Origin: Nephromyces sp. MM_2019
Lineage: Eukaryota; Apicomplexa; Aconoidasida; Nephromycida
Direction: 5' to 3'
NCBI GenBank assembly: GCA_015657535.1
Contig: JADHZB010001966.1
Location: 1-64,000 of the forward strand
DNA: 64,000 nucleotides
Shown here: piece by piece, positions 45,906 through 64,000 of the stretch
How positions within the stretch are numbered: position 1 is the stretch's first letter
Layout of the letters: each line of letters opens with the position of its first letter
The notes under the pieces: generated by a model
What the model was told of the DNA's origin: nothing
Database searches by the model: none
The model's input: only the letters and a program-made list of their open reading frames with translations
Translations under genes and position numbers: made by a program

Positions 45906-48900
45906 GTCCAATACATATTACTGTATTTTAACCATGGATTGCATACATTAGAGGCTGCTATACATATCATTGTCGAGTCTGAAAAAAAAGAATGTAAAAA
46001 TTATAATTATAGGGTTATAATAACTGAAACAAAAATATTGATTAACCTTGTGTAGTATTGTTGTCTGTCAATTTTTGTAAATCAATCTTGAGTGATTTTT
46101 CTAAAGATGCTCCTGATAAATAATAATCAAGATTAATGTTAGATATGTGCGTCAAAGTTTATCTTCAATAAAAAAGTGTACTTGTGGTGTTTTAAATGGT
46201 AATGTGCATATAAAAACTTTTATAATCCATAATGGATTGTAAGTTAGAGATAGAACAAAAAGAGTTTCGATCAGATTGGTCACTTACTTATGGATCCTCT
46301 ATATCTTGAGGCAGCAACATCTGCTGCCTTTATAGGTGCTGGAATTGATATTGCAGATGTACATCTGTATAAAAAATATAGTTATCTTAATTAGATATAG
46401 AAATGTAGAATGAGATCATATTTATAATTAACCTTCCCCAAAGGTAACAAAGACTGTTTGCTAAAGCTGCAGCTTTATATTTGGATAAATTTAAATCATT
46501 TTCAATTATAAAGTAATGTATAGATGAAAGTGTTCCAATTCGTCCTGAAATAAATTTTAAAAAATTCATAAATCCCAAGGATTGATAAATATTCGATAAA
46601 GTATTAACCAGTATGTGCCTGGACATAAAAGTTTTGCCATGGTGTAGATTCTATCACGTCATCAAGTACGGCAAATCCAGGAGGTGGTGATTGATCCTGG
46701 GATTAATAGCAGTTAAATTGATTTTATAGATGATAATAGTCGTTAACAATTCGTTAAAAATATAAATAGTGCAATAAGATTTTGATGCAGTGAAAGTAAA
46801 TAGCTTTTATGACGAGTGATAGCTTCAAAACTAGGTAATAAGAAACAACTAACAGCATCATGAGCGAAAAAGCGCTTCCCATGTCTTTTTACTGCGACTA
46901 AACATACGATTTTGGGGCTGACAATTCGTTAACAAAATAAGATAGTATTAAAAAATGAAATCATTTTTGAAAAGTAGGCTACGTTGTCTTAGAGTGACTT
47001 CTGAGAGCTGCTTTGAGTTTAGGGATTTCATTAATGGCGATATCTTCTATTTGACTAGTAGAGACACCATCTCTAAGGTATATGACTTTCGAAGGAGGAT
47101 TCACTATACCATTTTTTCGTCTCGCCTTTAATATATGGTCAATGGCACCTCTAAAAATTTATTGAGAAGAAAATTGAAAAATTTAAATGAACTCTCTTAA
47201 CTTACTCGAAATCTTCTATAATTTCCGTTTTAGGAGCCTGGGCTTTGCAAAAGTTTGCATGTACTGTAAACGAATCATCAATTGATCCAACCTGGAGTAT
47301 TTGAAATAGAAATTTAATAGATATAACTTATGTAGCTGCCACAAACTTACTAATGAACAAATTGATGGTGCGATTGCTTTGTTACCAAAATAAGTAACGT
47401 CAGCTCCGAGGATTAATGTGCTATAATCGGTTCCAACAATACGACTAAAAATTGAACCACTGCCATCATTAATGTCAATTTTATTGTTCGTACCACCTAA
47501 TTTGAGGTTTACTTTCAAAGCTAAATTACTCCAGTACATCTCTATATTTCTAGAGGATTTTCTTAACGACTCCATACAAATGCATTGTGTTGGATAAAAA
47601 GGATCTGTGATAGCTTTAAGATCTTCCTTCATTCCAAAGGGGAATTTGTAAGGTATAAAGATAATTATAAGGTCTATTCGAGAGCTTGACAGTTCTTCTA
47701 AGAACCTCTTGATACCTCTAGGATTTATAGGATCATTTCGGCTACCTGTTATAACGTTTGATCCTTTGTTTTCTAATCTTATGTCTAGTCTTGACATGGC
47801 AGACAGAAATTCGTTAGTATATTGTTTCGACTCATTAGTCATGTGGATGAAAGCCACACTCCCTGAGCGTGGCTTAAGTAGTTTTGTGTTTTTAAGGTTC
47901 CAAGAAGCCTTGCCATCTGTGTTGACTTTTCGGTTGTATATCATGTTTGGGTGTGGTAATATTTCTGCATCAATTTCTTTCATTCTATTAGATGTTTTTA
48001 ATTTTAGGGGGCCCGAACGATTAAGTAAAATGTCATTGTTACAAGAATTGATGTAGCTAATTCTTTGTGAAGGAGACAAAGCCAGACGTTTCATAAGCTC
48101 CTCCTTTGTTGCTTCACTAAGGTTTTTTATTCTTTGGGCAGGAACTTGGCACACCCCTACAGGTAATAAGATTGGTCTTTTTGGTCGCCCTACATTTATT
48201 AAAGGCTCGTAAGCCTTAACATCCCATTCTGGGTATGTTTCTTGAAAAAAACTATAAACTGTGTATTTTTTTCCATCTCTATTTTCAAACTCAACTTCCG
48301 GTGAATCAGCAAGAAATTCACTTATCTCGCGCATTTTATATAATCTAGATTCGGGTCTATGTTTTGCCTCTATATTGATGGATAAACCTTTAAACTCAGA
48401 GTTTAAAAACCTGAGATATTTCTGTAAGAAATAATTTCCACCACTTTCTGTAGTAAAGTCAAAATTTGCTGATTCTTTAAGTTTTTGGTGTATCAGTTCT
48501 TGCATGAAACCTTTTAAAGTATTAGATCTGTGAGAGATTGTAAGTAATTTTTTTTTAAATAAAATAAATATGCTAATTGTAAATGGATCAATCTTTAAAA
48601 TCGGGAGTGTAACAATCTTTCTTTTGAAATTAACTCAAGCTCAAATTATAAATAAGTAAAATCCAAAAGATAAATAAAAAAAATTGTTAAAATGAATAGT
48701 ATGCCTAAATAAAATATCAATGAGTAGTTAGTCTAACCCTATTCCAATGACTCCAGTCATATCACGATAGACACCAAGTTCGACTTTGGAGCTAGAATCT
48801 TTGTATTGTATAAAATGTTGTGACATACCATACCATAACCTGTATGGTTCGATTCTTAAACTCTCCCAATATTTTGGAGAGTCGTAAAAAAATCTGCTTT

Positions 48901-56351: not shown

Positions 56352-57537
56352 GTATACCAAATATAAAATTCGAATTGATTGAGATATTTAAATAGTTATT
56401 ATAAATAAGGCTCAAAGATTCTTAAAGATTTTCATGAAATACAAGTCATTAAGCACAAGATTTAATATTTGTTAAACTCTGTCCTTGTTCGTAAAAGATA
56501 AAGGAAATTTAAATCTATATGTAGGCAGATTCTTTGCATATATTACTCATCATAATATGAGAGCTCAGAATTTGTTGTAATTAAGCCCGAGGAGAAAGAT
56601 ATAATTTAATATTCTCAAACTATGAATCACATCAAAAAACTTTATATCAAATATAGTTTTAGATTTAATGATTTCATTAGTTTTGGAACGTGATCTATAA
56701 AAGTTTAATGTCATAACTAAAATGGCTAGGGTATCAATCAAATTGCCATTAATCTGATTGTCCAAAATTGTTTTTTTAAGAGATGTATGAAAAGTTGGTA
56801 AAGATATAACTCTAAAATATTTGCAAAATTGATTTTTTTGAGCTTAAGCGCTTGTAAAAACGGAGTGTTTTTAAAGCCAGTTTTGTATTTATAACTATCA
56901 AGCCGAAAATAATTAACTTTAAGTTCGAGAGACCAATTAACCCAGCATTACTGCCTTTTTATTTAACAACTCTTTCAAAAGTGGATTCTATATTCATCGA
57001 ATTAATTACAAATACTTTTCAAAACCCATTTTATCAATAGAAAAGTGCAGGTATTAAAAGTATAAGCTCATGGGCAGTTTTCTTACTTAAGAAAACACTT
57101 ATAACCTTTTGTTTTTACTTTGATAGGCATGAATCCAAAAACAGGCATACATAACAAATGCATATGAAATCATCTAGCAACAGATTTAAAGATTAACCCA
57201 TAGATCCTACCNCCCCCCACTTACCTTCTGTTAGACATTTAAACATGTATATAAATTTAGCCTATGTATTCTAAAGTTTCTTCTTTTTGCATAATTTCTT
57301 TCGTCACATATTCTTTTACTGTATGCAATTAGAGTTATATACTTGGTCAAAGAGATTTTATCCTGAATTAGATGGCTTTAAGTGTAGACACATAAACTTA
57401 GCTTGCTGGATAATCTTTATAATTATTTGTTTCTTCTTCTAACTTGATCAAAGTTAGTACACTGAGTTTTAAATCTTTACAACCAATTCTGTTTCTTTAA
57501 CCAGTTAATAACAGAAAACACTTTCTTATTCTTGAAA
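56352..57537. other. Intergenic region upstream of RPS9
   Basis: AT-rich, becoming T/C-rich near the RPS9 start, as expected for a ribosomal-protein promoter and 5' leader. It contains the only ambiguous base of the window (N at 57212) inside a C-run. Confidence 0.45.
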
Positions 57538-58841
57538 ATGGTAAAATCATACAGATCACGCACAAAAACTGCCCGTAACCCCAAACGTCCTTTTGAGAAG
57601 GTAAACCAAAACTTTTCAATTCGAATAAGAATAAACTAACATTCTTTACCGTGAGAATCTCTCTCATATCTTCCATTATATAATACTGGCTTTAAGAACT
57701 TGTAACAATACTCTTTTTACACTATCTTCCCCTAAGAGGATACACTTATTAATCTTCCTTATATGTAAATAATTAGTATTCTGTAAGAATAAAATTCAAA
57801 CCATTCTCAGTAAGTTCTTGATAAGCAGTAAAATATCTCCAATGGTAGCTGTTTTGTTTTTAAGAATTGTAGAATAGATTTTTTTTAAGATTAAATCCAC
57901 TTTCTTAACTAGGGAAGATACATATAAATATCAATTGACACATAGAATCCCAGATATGTAAGCACAACATTTTCAACCTATTCGAATCTTAACTTATGTC
58001 AGGAACGTCTTGACCAAGAGCTTAAAGTCATTGGCGAGTATGGCTTGAAAAATAAGAGGGAAGTATGGAGGTATGCAATTCATATTATAGTAGCTACTTA
58101 ATATCCCAATATTTAGGCATTATTAAAGAAATACATTTCTAAGAGTTAAAATTAATCTCATTAATGATTTTTATTACAGAGTTCAATATGCATTAGCAAA
58201 AATCCGAACAGCTGCCCGAGAATTATTAACATTGGATGAGAAAGATCCAAGAAGAACTTTCCAAGGTATAAATTTGCTCGCAAATCTAGCTATAAACACA
58301 GCATAGAGCTAACAAATTTGAAACTTATAAAATTTTTAAAAACAACAACACAACTAATTGTTAATTCTAAGTATATTCAAATTAATCACTGAATAAGCTC
58401 GATGCAATTTCGAGGTTTATTTTTATTTTTGAACATAACTTAACATTTTTATTAATTCCTCGATTTTTCACAGGCACTGCTCTTCTAAGACGTATGGCTC
58501 GTCTCGGCCTTCTCTCAGAAAGTGAACAGAAATTGGATTATGTCCTTGGTCTAACAGCTTATAAATTTATGGATCGACGCTTACAAACTAAAGTGTTCCG
58601 TCTGGGTCTAGCAAAATCTATTCATCACGCACGTGTACTCATTCGCCAACGTCATATCCGTGTCAACTCACATATTGTCGATATTCCATCCTTTATGGTT
58701 CGTTTGGATAGTGAAAAACATGTTTTATTCGCAACTACATCAGCCTTTGGTGGTGGCAAACCAGGACGTACCAGAAGAAAAACTATTAAACGACTGGCAA
58801 AGGGTGGTAACGCTGATGATGACAATGATGCAGATGAATAA
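57538..58841 (+). CDS. RPS9: 40S ribosomal protein S9 (uS4)
   Basis: Four exons (57538-57600, 58003-58070, 58180-58265, 58474-58841) give exactly 194 residues, the usual eukaryotic length. The sequence follows eukaryotic S9 throughout: [43 protein letters not shown], the S4 RNA-binding domain with [20 protein letters not shown] and [20 protein letters not shown], then [11 protein letters not shown]. It belongs to the cytosolic small subunit and is important for decoding fidelity and early 18S assembly. The C-terminus is unusually acidic (ADDDNDADE). The start is the ATG in GAAAATGG, which gives the normal N-terminus. Confidence 0.98.
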
Positions 58842-59124: not shown

Positions 59125-60141
59125 TCAGTGTTCAGGTATAACTCCTCCAAAGAACATTTTTACTCGTTGCATCACCGAGTCCTATCAAATATGTATAACG
59201 CAGAATAATATATAAATATGGATAGTAAAAGTTTATTTACAAAATGTAAATTTTTATGAAAGTAGTGTACAAATAAATCTGTTGATAATATAATTCTTGT
59301 GAAAATTAACAGAAAATGAAATTAATAGGCAAATTTGTTAATACAAATTAGGGAAAGGTATATATAGTGGATTAGATATAATTTCACCTTATTGGGGTCA
59401 TAGGGCTTATCCTTGCTTGGAAGTTCGAGAATGGTAGGTATAATACTTGTGTGTAGATCAACAATAGTTCTAATTTCATCCGCAATCTGATAAATGTAGA
59501 TTTTATTTCAGATGTATTATCCTATATGTATTCTACTATTAGTCGAAGAGTAGAAGTCTAGGTTTCTTTTAATTTAAAATGTACTTTCTGAAAAATCGTA
59601 GCTTTATATATATTTAGTGTGTCTATGTATGCAAGCTTTACATATTGATTTATAAGGATGATGCCTGTATCACGTCTTTCCACAAAATCTTTGAAAGCAT
59701 TCTCGATTTCACTTGTTTTTGTTTCTAAATAAGGGGGATGTATTATCGTAAATTTATTATATTAGTATGTCATTAGTTGTCAAAAACACTAAGATTATAA
59801 TTTCCAGTACTTTGATCAACAACTAGAAAATTTGTGTTGCCTAAAGCGTCTCTCATCCCAGTTCCTGTGAGGAGGAAGCCGGTAACTGTATCCTATAATC
59901 AGAAAATAAAAGTGTGTAGTTTAATGAAGTTTAAATTAGTCAAGGCAAAAGGATGAGTCATAAAGCATATATCTCACAGTAATTCAAATACCAACTTATT
60001 ATAGCAGTAAATTCGCTTCAATATTGGAAAAAGTTTTTATCACGAGCATATCAATGTCTAGGACATTGAACTGCTAACCTCATCTCCAATGACACAGACT
60101 TTTAAGTCTGTTCCCCCCTGTATGTTATCCTTTTTAACCAT
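59125..60141 (-). CDS. V-type proton ATPase subunit F
   Basis: Five exons start at ATG 60141: 60079-60141, about 59819-59892, about 59636-59729, about 59388-59490 and 59125-59172. They read in phase: LKVCVIGDE, then DTVTGFLLTGTGMRDALGNT and NFLVVDQ, then KTSEIENAFKDFVERRDTGI, then IADEIRTIVDLH and PTILELPSKDKPYDPNK, and finally DSVMQRVKMFFG. This is the complete small subunit F (Vma7 type, about 120 residues), a central-stalk component coupling ATP hydrolysis in V1 to proton pumping. It acts on acidic compartments and, in apicomplexans, also at the plasma membrane. Confidence 0.94.
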
Positions 60142-62399
60142 TATAAAATAAAGCTTTAAAAGGAAGGTAATGGTTTTAAGATTTAGATTTAAGATGTATC
60201 AAATTCGAAGCAAAAAGCAGTAAAGCAATGCTTTATTACAAATGCCGACGAATCTAATATTGCTTTTCAGTGGAAGTTGATAGTAAAGAGTGGCGCCAAT
60301 TTGAAATTTTCAAGGATTGCTTGGTCCTATAAGATTGATATTGGTAGCTCAGTGTAGATTGGAAATCTTCCGATAAAAGAGTGTATGAAATAATTTTTAA
60401 ATTGTTATATAACGCATTTATTGTCAGAATGACATAGTAATTCAGTGCAAATGCAGTGAAAAGTAAATTTGTGTGTACCAATTTTTTTAGGTAATCCTCG
60501 AGTTCTTATTGGTTTCGAGAGAAAGGCTAAAACATTAGAAGATGCGATGCTATAGATTTAAAAGTTTTGATAAAAATTTGCAAGAAGCATGTGGGTTGAT
60601 TTTCAATCAATTCTTTTGGCCTGGCTTGAAAACAATTCCGACTATGTTATAACATTAAAAAATTCTCTATGTGATATTGATCTATGAAACAATCAACACA
60701 AGTTGAAGCAAATAACCTCGCTTATAAGTTATTAACAATACTTTTTTAGATTCCTTTTTCAAAATTATCTTAAAATAAGCTCAACAAAAATATCATTGTG
60801 TAGAATTTGTGTAAATCAGACAAGTTTATTGAGACGAACTAATTTTTCCTCTATTAAACTCTACTGAAGTTTTTCAAAGAGCTTCTTGCTCAATTAAAAA
60901 TTACTATTTATACGCTAAATATACAACGAACAATTACAAGTACACCTCCGATTACACCAACCCTTTCACACACTTTCATATAGTTGGGTGTTGTACGTTT
61001 ATTAATTAAATACTTTGTATAACTAGGCATATTTAAAGCTTTATGGTTAACTAATAATTCTAAATGTTAGCTGTAAAAAAACTTTACAATGCCAAAAATT
61101 TTTGCGACACAAAACCAGACTTGAACACACTCACTCAACAAATAAGCAAAGCCTACAAACCAAGTTAAAATTTACTACCTAACACACACTAGATGCACTA
61201 AGCAATTTTTCTTCCATAAATACACAATCATAGCCACCCAACCAATATAAGATACAATGGTTAGGCCAAACTGTTAACTCCTCAAAAAATTATTGCTACG
61301 CTCGGCTACAAAACTAAAACAAATACGTGACTAACAAACATGCTGACCAATTAGTAAACAAAATTTAAACGTAGCAAATGTATACCTCCACACAACTTGT
61401 AAAAACCTTGAAAGTTGTTTCGAATAAAATATATCTGATATAGATAAGCCAAAATATGCCTCAAAACAGATTGCAGAAACTTTTACTTAATTATCAAAGT
61501 TATAAATTAAAACAACAATGCTTAATTAACCTAACAAAATAAATACAATAATTGACCTGATTGAACCCTCAATCCTAAATAACACCTCAATCTTGCACAA
61601 TGGCTATTATCAGTTCAAATTCTTTTGGATATTTTTATTTCTGACTTTGGTACCAAATGAGTAATTTTAAACTGTAGCGATTCTATAATTACTGTTTTAC
61701 CATAGACACTTTGTTAGACTTCTACACAAACTCAAACGCTTTTAAATTTAAAAGAAAATGTAAATTTAATTATCCTATTTAAGCTTGCTCACAACTCATA
61801 ATACTTTAATTAACTTGTAAGCTAAATCCATGATTAATTGGGAAAAATTTGTCTTTAGTAATTTACATTATGAATATGTTAAAATCTAGTTTAGATTTGA
61901 GAACTAGTTCTAAAAAGTGAAGATACATTTTGATCTTAATGGCTTATAATTAAAAAATTGAAACATTGGCAGAGAAATGTCTCCTATATTTTAAAAACAT
62001 AGCTTTAATAAGTCTTAATAAGAGCAAAAAAAATGTTTCCCTGAGCTTTATTAGGGTGTTGTCACTTTTCTTTTATGGAAATAACCCAGTTGCCTTATTT
62101 AGATATAAATGATTTTTATACAAGTTGTAATAAGTGATAAATAAAATTCTAATCAAATAGATTAATACATGAATACGGAGCCTATTGACAAAAAGTCAGA
62201 AATTTTAGATTATATGATAATTAAAGGTTATATTTCCAAATAGATTTTAATCTTTAAACAACGGATGCAAAGTGCTCAAAATTGCCCATTATTGTATACA
62301 AATGTCCTACTACTTTAGGGATTAATTTTTAGCAGTATTCAGAGAATGTGGGCGGTTGCTCTATTGAGTTAAACAATGGTATATAAGTTTTCAACTCGA
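60142..62399. other. Long intergenic region with A/C-skewed block
   Basis: No gene was recognised. Between about 60880 and 61420 the plus strand becomes visibly A- and C-rich and G-poor, unlike the flanks. No ORF of note and no RNA fold could be established by eye. Confidence 0.4.
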
Positions 62400-63110
62400 A
62401 GATGATGATATTATTCTTATAATTGGATATTATTTACTCCTTTAGCTCCTCTTTTTATTTTTGTATAAGCGTATGAATATGTGAACTTACCTAATCCTCT
62501 TTCTCCTATAGTTAAGATAAATTCCTCATTTTGAGCAAATTCTAGTATTTGTTCTTGATTTATACCATCAACTTTAACATTTTTAATAAATGATTTAATG
62601 TATTAGGGTCTCCTTTCTTAATAGCATCAATAATTTTTAGTCTACTCTCTAATGAGATAGAAAGGTAAGCGCTTTTCAAATCAAAAACAACTTCAAAACC
62701 ATTGATAATATCTAGAGACACTACTTTATCTTCTTTTGTTAACCGAATAGCATTAATTACAAAAGTTTTACTTGATTTGAAAAGTCTTAAATCCTGCACC
62801 TGAAATCTGATGATCTTCCCCAGTCTTGTAGAAACTATAACATGATTTTCTTCTGGTGCTGTTTTAACATCAACTAACTCTTTTTTTTTCAACTCCAATT
62901 GCTATTTTTCCAATAAAAGGAATATTAACGAAATCTAAAATGCTATTACGCTTTGCTTGTCTATTAGATGTTAAAAACACCAAAGATAAATGCTTAAGAG
63001 AGCTAACATTTCTAGATAAAGACATTATAGTAGCAATTTTCTCATTCTCTTGAGAGAACTGTATCATGTTTGCAATATGTTTTCCCTTATGTTTTATCAG
63101 ACAATAAAAA
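62400..63110 (-). pseudogene. gyrA: Bacterial DNA gyrase subunit A, C-terminal fragment, frame-broken
   Basis: Read right to left across three frames, this is the second half of the GyrA beta-pinwheel, the DNA-wrapping domain of bacterial gyrase. The first frame has KGKHIANMIQF and LDFVNIPFIGKIAI. After a break at a T9 run (62881-62889) comes VIVSTRLGKIIRFQVQDLRL and DKVVSLDI. After another break near 62580 comes VDGINQEQILEFAQNEEF, then ILTIGERGLGKF, ending at a stop at 62417. The pattern (GKIAI, then LATklGK.iRF, then LAeNE.fiLTvtE.GyGK) is that of alphaproteobacterial, and especially Rickettsiales, gyrase. There are no introns and no N-terminal half. It lies directly against the HscA fragment on the same strand. 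A nucleus-encoded apicoplast gyrase is the alternative, but the frameshifts and truncation argue against it. Confidence 0.8.
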
Positions 63111-63540
63111 TTTTTTTACCTCTCTAATTTTTAATATAGCATCTAACTTAGCTCTGTGGAGCAATGTTTGATTGTAATCTAACTTAGCCTTCTGATAAGA
63201 ATTATCCAACACATCATTTATCATTTTTTTACTCAAATCTTTTAAAATATTAATTCCACGAGATATAAAATTTGCAACATTATTCTTATCCTTAGCACTA
63301 AAATATAACATACCATTAACATCCACATGAAAAGTAATTTCTATCTTCACTTGGCCTGCAAATTTGGGTTCTAAATTGGATAACCCACAAAAAACTAAAA
63401 AGATACAATCTTTAGCAAATTCTCTCTCCTTGTAAAATTTTAATTTTTATCGCAATCTGATTATCTATAAATGTAGTAAATTCTTTTGTCACAAAATAAG
63501 GCAGAGGAGTGTTTCTCAAAATAATTTTCTTTAATTTTTG
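63087..63540 (-). pseudogene. hscA: Bacterial HscA (Fe-S assembly Hsp70), C-terminal fragment, frame-broken
   Basis: Two frames contain the substrate-binding domain of an Hsp70. The first has IILRNTPLP, EFTTFIDNQ and ILQGER. It breaks at a shortened GA repeat near 63420 and resumes as EFAKDC, then FAGQVKIEITFHVDVNGML, FSAKDK and NSYQKAKLDYNQTLLHRAKL. The 'EFTTf.DNQ', 'QGERE...DC' and 'I.ITF.VD.NGmL' features fit HscA rather than DnaK or mitochondrial Hsp70, and HscA serves ISC iron-sulfur assembly. The ATPase domain is missing and the C-terminal lid is cut where the GyrA-like sequence begins. No introns are seen. The resemblance is best to alphaproteobacterial HscA, judged from family knowledge without a search. 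Confidence 0.78.
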
Positions 63541-64000
63541 ATGATGCTTTGTTTGTAGGATATTTTCCATGATTATTACAAGATTTGCTCAAGTACATTC
63601 ACAAGGGGTTGTTTCAATGAGAATTACATGGAGCATTATATAATAGATTTAAACTAGCACAGGGTTTGTGTCTAATCATAAAAAATAAAATTCAATTTAA
63701 AATTTGAATTTTTGCTAAATAAATAAATGTAAAATCTCTCATAAAATGGCAAATGTGCCAATTTTTCGATTTTTACGCTTAGTCAAATTAAACTCAAAGT
63801 TTATGATACAATGTTTTTCCTTTGAGCCATGCTATAATTAAAATCTAGCTCTTCCACTCTAAATAACTTTAATAGCATGAAGTAGCCTTTTTAACTTGTT
63901 TATTCTAACATGTATCATTATGAGCTGCTAGGATTTGGTACGAATTTCTAGAATAAAGCAACTGACCCCTGACCAACTTATTAAACGTGAAATTAAATAA
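63541..64000. other. Right edge, no recognised gene
   Basis: AT-rich. If the HscA fragment were longer, its ATPase domain would lie here on the minus strand, but I could not read any Hsp70 ATPase motif. A short inverted repeat (GGCAAATGTGCC) lies near 63748. Confidence 0.35.

Follow-up and report, generated by a model that had tools for sequence, protein, structure and literature searches.

Nuclei are known to acquire DNA from symbionts and organelles, as in numts and in Wolbachia inserts, the latter consisting of Rickettsiales symbiont DNA in arthropod and nematode nuclei and being mostly non-functional. The available part of one account describes numts as products of end joining at double-strand breaks, in which microhomology may or may not be involved (PMC2820518). 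The locus reported here would be like numts and nupts, as that text presents them, in consisting of short genome fragments of bacterial derivation that were end-joined at breaks and then decayed, whereas the donor is an organelle there and probably a bacterial symbiont here. For Wolbachia, PMC6469114 deals with Formica exsecta. Such nuclear inserts share with our locus the apparent presence of Rickettsiales symbiont DNA within a host nucleus, and differ in that the host here is a single-celled apicomplexan, the donor lineage is a different one, within Rickettsiaceae, and the fragments measure tens to hundreds of bases.

Bacterial endosymbionts in Apicomplexa are described, in the part of PMC7737231 available to us, as unknown outside Nephromycidae. 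The same text characterizes the alphaproteobacterial endosymbionts of Nephromyces and Cardiosporidium as vertically transmitted Rickettsiaceae with a reduced, AT-rich genome of about 1 Mb; it treats the living symbiont, and nuclear copies are not met in that part of the work. Titles and abstract openings in the open-licence PMC literature yielded no earlier report of nuclear bacterial-symbiont DNA in Apicomplexa. We analysed a window of 64,000 nucleotides from a Nephromyces sp. MM_2019 contig, together with the remainder of that contig, the host assembly and the genome of a related symbiont, starting from an initial annotation that had recognized a decayed pair of HscA and GyrA fragments near the end of the window.

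Three symbiont-like fragments in a host contig

The larger of the two HscA pieces, 119 residues long, had a single relative in a scan of 84,980 genomes of bacteria and archaea, 'MAG: Rickettsia sp. isolate MM_Alph2018' (89% identity over residues 7-117), and the plasmid collection searched gave no match. This MAG (11 contigs, 995,540 bases, GC 0.258) was compared in full with the 95,416-base host contig. With window positions 60000-64000 as a DNA query, five matches to the MAG were obtained, three of them strong and mutually abutting; the other two (E 8e-5 and 2.8e-4) were weak and were taken as noise. In this DNA comparison the three strong matches delimit a symbiont-derived mosaic at window positions 62427-63590, composed as follows:

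62427-63090, minus strand: gyrA fragment, about residues 602-826 of 902 (92.05% identity, 667 columns, 958 bits), aligned at the DNA level to MAG contig C10:83024-83690
63091: gyrA/hscA junction, with no more than one filler base and without clear microhomology when the host and both symbiont loci are set side by side
63092-63528, minus strand: hscA fragment, about residues 396-542 of 590 (92.48% identity, 439 columns, 641 bits), aligned at the DNA level to MAG contig C4:121581-122019
63529: hscA/gltX junction, at most one filler base
63530-63590, plus strand: gltX fragment, 22 bases from the start of the gene preceded by a leader of 39 bases (93.4%, 61 columns, 89.7 bits), aligned at the DNA level to MAG contig C10:146982-147041

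Symbiont gene names other than gyrA and hscA are readings of translations rather than results of family searches; gltX is thus presumed, from its translation, to be glutamyl-tRNA synthetase. As a control for chance, the reversed symbiont genome was compared with contig positions 1-84,000 with the low-complexity filter on, the last 11 kb of the contig being left out of this control as simple repeats. The best match of the reversed genome reached 47.3 bits, compared with 958, 641 and 89.7 bits for the three fragments, and all remaining MAG matches in the same 84,000 bases, also with the filter on, stayed at or below 48.2 bits. A chance origin of the three matches is excluded. Matches of up to 150 bits between the last 11 kb of the contig and symbiont contig C8, seen with the filter off, were set aside as simple repeats.

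In the MAG, the counterparts of the three fragments are intact, open genes at separate loci. The gene order around hscA was read as valS-hscB-hscA-fdx, and gyrA does not occur within 10 kb of it; gyrA and gltX lie on a different contig from hscA, about 63 kb from each other. Since the fragments derive from three separate places, gyrA and hscA are not a gene pair, and this element of the initial annotation is to be abandoned. Its two fragments are both there, on the minus strand, adjacent and frame-broken as it had described, as confirmed by profile matches and DNA comparison; the third piece, the gltX start at 63530-63590, had been missed. Both inner junctions look blunt, with at most one filler base each and without long homology; no clear microhomology was seen at the four ends, and no obvious target-site duplication at the outer ends of the insert. 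This scrambled, blunt concatenation resembles what would be expected of pieces caught in a double-strand break. A single copy of the insert is present in the 48.3-Mb host assembly.

Profile and protein searches point to the same assignments. In NCBIfam, HscA models recognize two stretches, 63087-63446 (E 8.7e-18) and 63412-63588 (E 3.1e-12), while those for GyrA recognize three frames that overlap one another in 62417-63115 (E 1.7e-5, 4.6e-8 and 3.6e-7), with scores far under the full-length cut-offs because the genes are present only in pieces. Support from Pfam is weaker, with E 5.2e-7 and 3.6e-4 for HSP70 and E 1.9e-4, 0.04 and 0.11 for the gyrase A C-terminal repeat. The GyrA pieces share 78%, 84% and 88% identity with a MAG protein named DNA topoisomerase subunit A [Rickettsia sp.]. 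When the corresponding part of symbiont GyrA was compared with 5.8 billion proteins, the 26 matches listed were headed by the MAG's own protein (100%), followed by one at 60% and then by values of at most 40%; to the second-ranked protein of that list the GyrA pieces are 52%, 47% and 63% identical. For the HscA pieces, identity is 89% and 87% with the HscA of the MAG, no higher than 43% with the host Hsp70 frames compared, and 38% and 44% with symbiont DnaK. A whole-genome search for gyrA returned the insert (two rows) and a weak match on host contig C861, nothing else; the latter falls in another frame, and the long frame at that place has no visible gyrase features. An Hsp70 match with stops on host contig C1036, considered as a second bacterial HscA, proved to be an intron-containing, eukaryotic-looking Hsp70 relative.

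On DNA identity, the donor appears to be a relative (92%) of this one sequenced Rickettsiaceae symbiont. We take the 'MM' of MM_Alph2018 to stand, probably, for Molgula manhattensis, the tunicate that Nephromyces inhabits, in parallel with the taxon name Nephromyces sp. MM_2019; the taxonomy lists both Nephromyces sp. MM_2019 and MMRI. The alphaproteobacterial symbionts of Nephromyces and Cardiosporidium are on average 47.6% identical in amino acids (PMC7737231), and a donor at 92% therefore points to the lineage that yielded MM_Alph2018. If the MAG is the Nephromyces symbiont, that of Cardiosporidium would be too distant to have served as donor.

Chromosomal setting

The host contig is 95.4 kb long and continues for 31.4 kb past the window and 31.8 kb past the insert. 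The following genes were recognized around the insert:

58386-58838, plus strand: uS4-type ribosomal protein gene in the left flank (Pfam S4, E 1.8e-13)
contig positions 67225-69027: DNMT2-like gene in the right flank (E 1.2e-24)
right of the DNMT2-like gene: ubiquitin-like frame (E 2.2e-4, short of the curated cut-off)
near contig position 84-85 kb: histone hairpin-binding protein (SLBP-like) gene (E 1.2e-22)

In the assembly, the insert is embedded between eukaryotic genes on both sides. The contig contains one N at 57,212 and a run of 2,500 from 90,001, and is therefore scaffolded; no N occurs from 57,213 to 90,000, so no scaffold gap touches the insert. A comparison of GC across the junction, proposed earlier as a check, gave no contrast (0.278 in the insert, 0.26 in each flank). 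The DNMT2-like gene carries a long extra C-terminal part, and its best match is from Chromera velia (45% identity, with 29% of the query aligned), followed by a protist transcript and then by fungi, animals and plants.

Decay and age of the insert

Length changes that are not a multiple of three number three in the coding pieces, affecting both, and one in the gltX leader; in part these could be sequencing errors. Relative to the MAG, the gyrA fragment has 50 substitutions (25 synonymous, 25 nonsynonymous) and the hscA fragment 31 (15 synonymous, 16 nonsynonymous), so that 41/81 are nonsynonymous, and in neither piece does a substitution create a stop. Random placement predicts 11.6 synonymous changes in gyrA and 7.9 in hscA, and the observed values were reached in 0/2000 and 2/2000 placements, respectively. 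This synonymous excess suggests that the divergence accumulated partly in the bacterium, under selection and ahead of the transfer, and partly later, the pieces apparently combining constrained with unconstrained change. Judging from the synonymous excess and the zero stops made by substitution, a large share of the 8% divergence may be older than the transfer. The number of post-transfer substitutions among the 81 runs from 48 to 26 if omega in the symbiont was 0.05 to 0.2, and would be about 6 at an omega of 0.3 and about 50 at 0.03. The post-transfer share hinges on omega, and the dating of the insert is therefore loose.

Further symbiont-like fragments in the host assembly

The host assembly was queried with symbiont DNA in the form of five 20-kb stretches, together 100 kb or 10% of the 995.5-kb genome; two were selected for containing hscA and gyrA, three arbitrarily. 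Thirteen matches resulted, of which two belong to this insert, four to probable other inserts, three are undecided, three fall in the 16S rRNA gene and one in a host Hsp70 gene. The probable other inserts are:

C329:42358-42550: 72% DNA identity over 193 bases; 42% amino-acid identity over 67 columns, two stops
C540:11521-11831: 73% DNA identity over 311 bases; 46% amino-acid identity, six internal stops
C1059:39487-39652: 89% identity over 166 bases, to a symbiont gene read as 5-formyltetrahydrofolate cyclo-ligase
C1117:105914-105978: 92% identity over 65 bases, to a symbiont gene read as ybeY

All four are probably further inserts, two at 89-92% and two at 72-73% with stops, and those on C1059 and C1117 are probably recent. 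These last two contigs extend to at least 39.6 and at least 106 kb, and the 20-kb query matched only the short stretches given. The older, decayed match on C329 has as its counterpart a symbiont membrane-protein gene read as TraX-like, and that of C540 we take to be the symbiont arginyl-tRNA synthetase gene. Matches on C784 (77% over 86 bases), C173 (71% over 197) and C487 (76% over about 80) were not counted as inserts because they are short or lie in conserved genes. Two matches on C1009 and one on C1084 fall in the 16S rRNA gene, for which organelle or other rRNA is an equally likely source, and were likewise not counted; the match on C1084 (6427-6521, 96 bases, 90% identity to symbiont 16S rRNA) may represent an insert or another rRNA. 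The match on C211, considered as an insert, is a host Hsp70 gene. A crude extrapolation from the four events gives some forty fragments expected genome-wide. No long symbiont match was found in the host assembly with the 100 kb of queries, and for the 10% tested the symbiont is therefore seemingly not part of the assembly.

Origin of the insert

We consider it highly probable that fragments of a Rickettsiaceae symbiont were captured by a nephromycid nucleus, joined at a break and have been decaying there. The initial annotation had likewise proposed endosymbiont DNA captured by an apicomplexan nucleus and decaying, and the 92% donor match, the eukaryotic flanks and the broken frames leave this as the best reading. 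Pieces of the symbiont genome would have reached the nucleus of a nephromycid host, most likely Nephromyces, and at least three of them, from separate parts of the symbiont chromosome, would have been ligated end to end into one double-strand break between the uS4-type gene and the DNMT2-like gene. The donor strain would already have differed from the sequenced strain, and the nonsynonymous and frame-shifting changes in the insert would, in the likely order of events, have been gained later. Probably without function, the insert would have drifted since its insertion, and the host genome would contain several symbiont inserts, this one among them, that differ in age.

The host encodes candidate proteins for such joining. 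Two strong Ku-domain matches were detected in the assembly (C935:53181-53726, E 1.2e-23; C279:2940-3518, E 2.0e-21), and a third (C1036:22487-22840) is weak and contains stops. Classical end joining (C-NHEJ) is described, in the available part of PMC6635534, as retained by Toxoplasma and Neospora and as lost from Plasmodium, Cryptosporidium and Theileria. Given its Ku genes, our host therefore seems to have kept this pathway, unlike Plasmodium and Theileria, and a nephromycid with Ku would thus be equipped to join free symbiont DNA into a break. The presence of host Ku proteins makes end joining at a chromosome break a likely route, and the joining was probably Ku-dependent.

Symbiont DNA could also have been placed in a nuclear contig by chimeric library molecules or by misassembly, and the initial annotation had named a join to a symbiont contig as its main alternative. 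We judge such an artefact improbable, even with a contig that is scaffolded (N at 57,212 and from 90,001) and junctions that are known from the assembly alone. Four gapless joins, two outer and two inner, of three scattered fragments would be needed, and eukaryotic genes stand on both sides of the insert with no adjacent gap. The pieces are frame-broken, whereas the symbiont genes are open; no long symbiont match accompanies them in the assembly, with 100 kb of symbiont queries; and other contigs carry further short fragments that appear differently aged. A prior joining of the three pieces in the donor strain, as a rearranged pseudogene region that moved as one, is less probable still: the MAG is only a 92% relative of that strain, which favours the idea, but it has the genes intact at separate loci, and the inner junctions are blunt like those of end-joined fragments.

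HscA is a member of the Hsp70 family, and apicomplexans can hold a gyrase for the apicoplast, and the pieces might on these grounds be sought in the apicoplast, the mitochondrion or old nuclear genes for organelle proteins. Placement with apicoplast or mitochondrial homologues was the outcome that the initial annotation had set beforehand against its own reading. What was found is 92% DNA identity to one symbiont, a level at which an organelle origin is already refuted, and HscA pieces at 87-89% to symbiont HscA against no more than 43% to any host Hsp70 frame compared, while the genome-wide gyrA search added to the insert only the weak C861 match in another frame. We attach almost no credence to this origin. 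Capture of symbiont fragments by the nephromycid nucleus thus stands as the preferred reading, and nuclear copies of this kind would demonstrate, for Nephromycidae, that DNA of symbionts enters the nucleus and is joined into chromosomes. On balance we lean towards a wider picture, in which dozens of symbiont fragments, from about 92% to 71% identity, would reflect recurrent arrival of symbiont DNA in the nucleus through a Ku-based end joining that was lost in Plasmodium and Theileria, leaving a datable fossil record of the bacteria of each host lineage and representing an early stage of organelle-type gene flow. Such inserts could reveal which of several types of symbiont each uncultured host lineage carries or carried, and provide relative dates, and the Ku genes, found in a Plasmodium-related group, bear on the timing of the loss of classical end joining.

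Features of the host genome

The urate oxidase family is represented in the assembly by eight matches on three contigs (C548, C1090 and C1018; best E 6.0e-28), in accordance with the available part of PMC6320678, in which urate oxidase among apicomplexans is reported for Nephromyces and Cardiosporidium. Malate synthase, by contrast, is reported for Nephromyces but not Cardiosporidium (PMC7737231). The three uricase loci differ in form, one being a single frame of 364 residues, another spread over four matches and the third containing stops. Host GC averaged 31.7% over 165 kb sampled, with loci between 0.27 and 0.43. Three uricase loci together with this spread of GC indicate that the assembly may mix several host species, a matter on which the Hsp70 comparison gave no decision. 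Elsewhere in the window, a minus-strand frame at 47219-48634 carries PAZ (E 9.6e-9) and Piwi (E 3.4e-9) domains and is Argonaute-like; RNA interference may therefore exist in the host apicomplexan.
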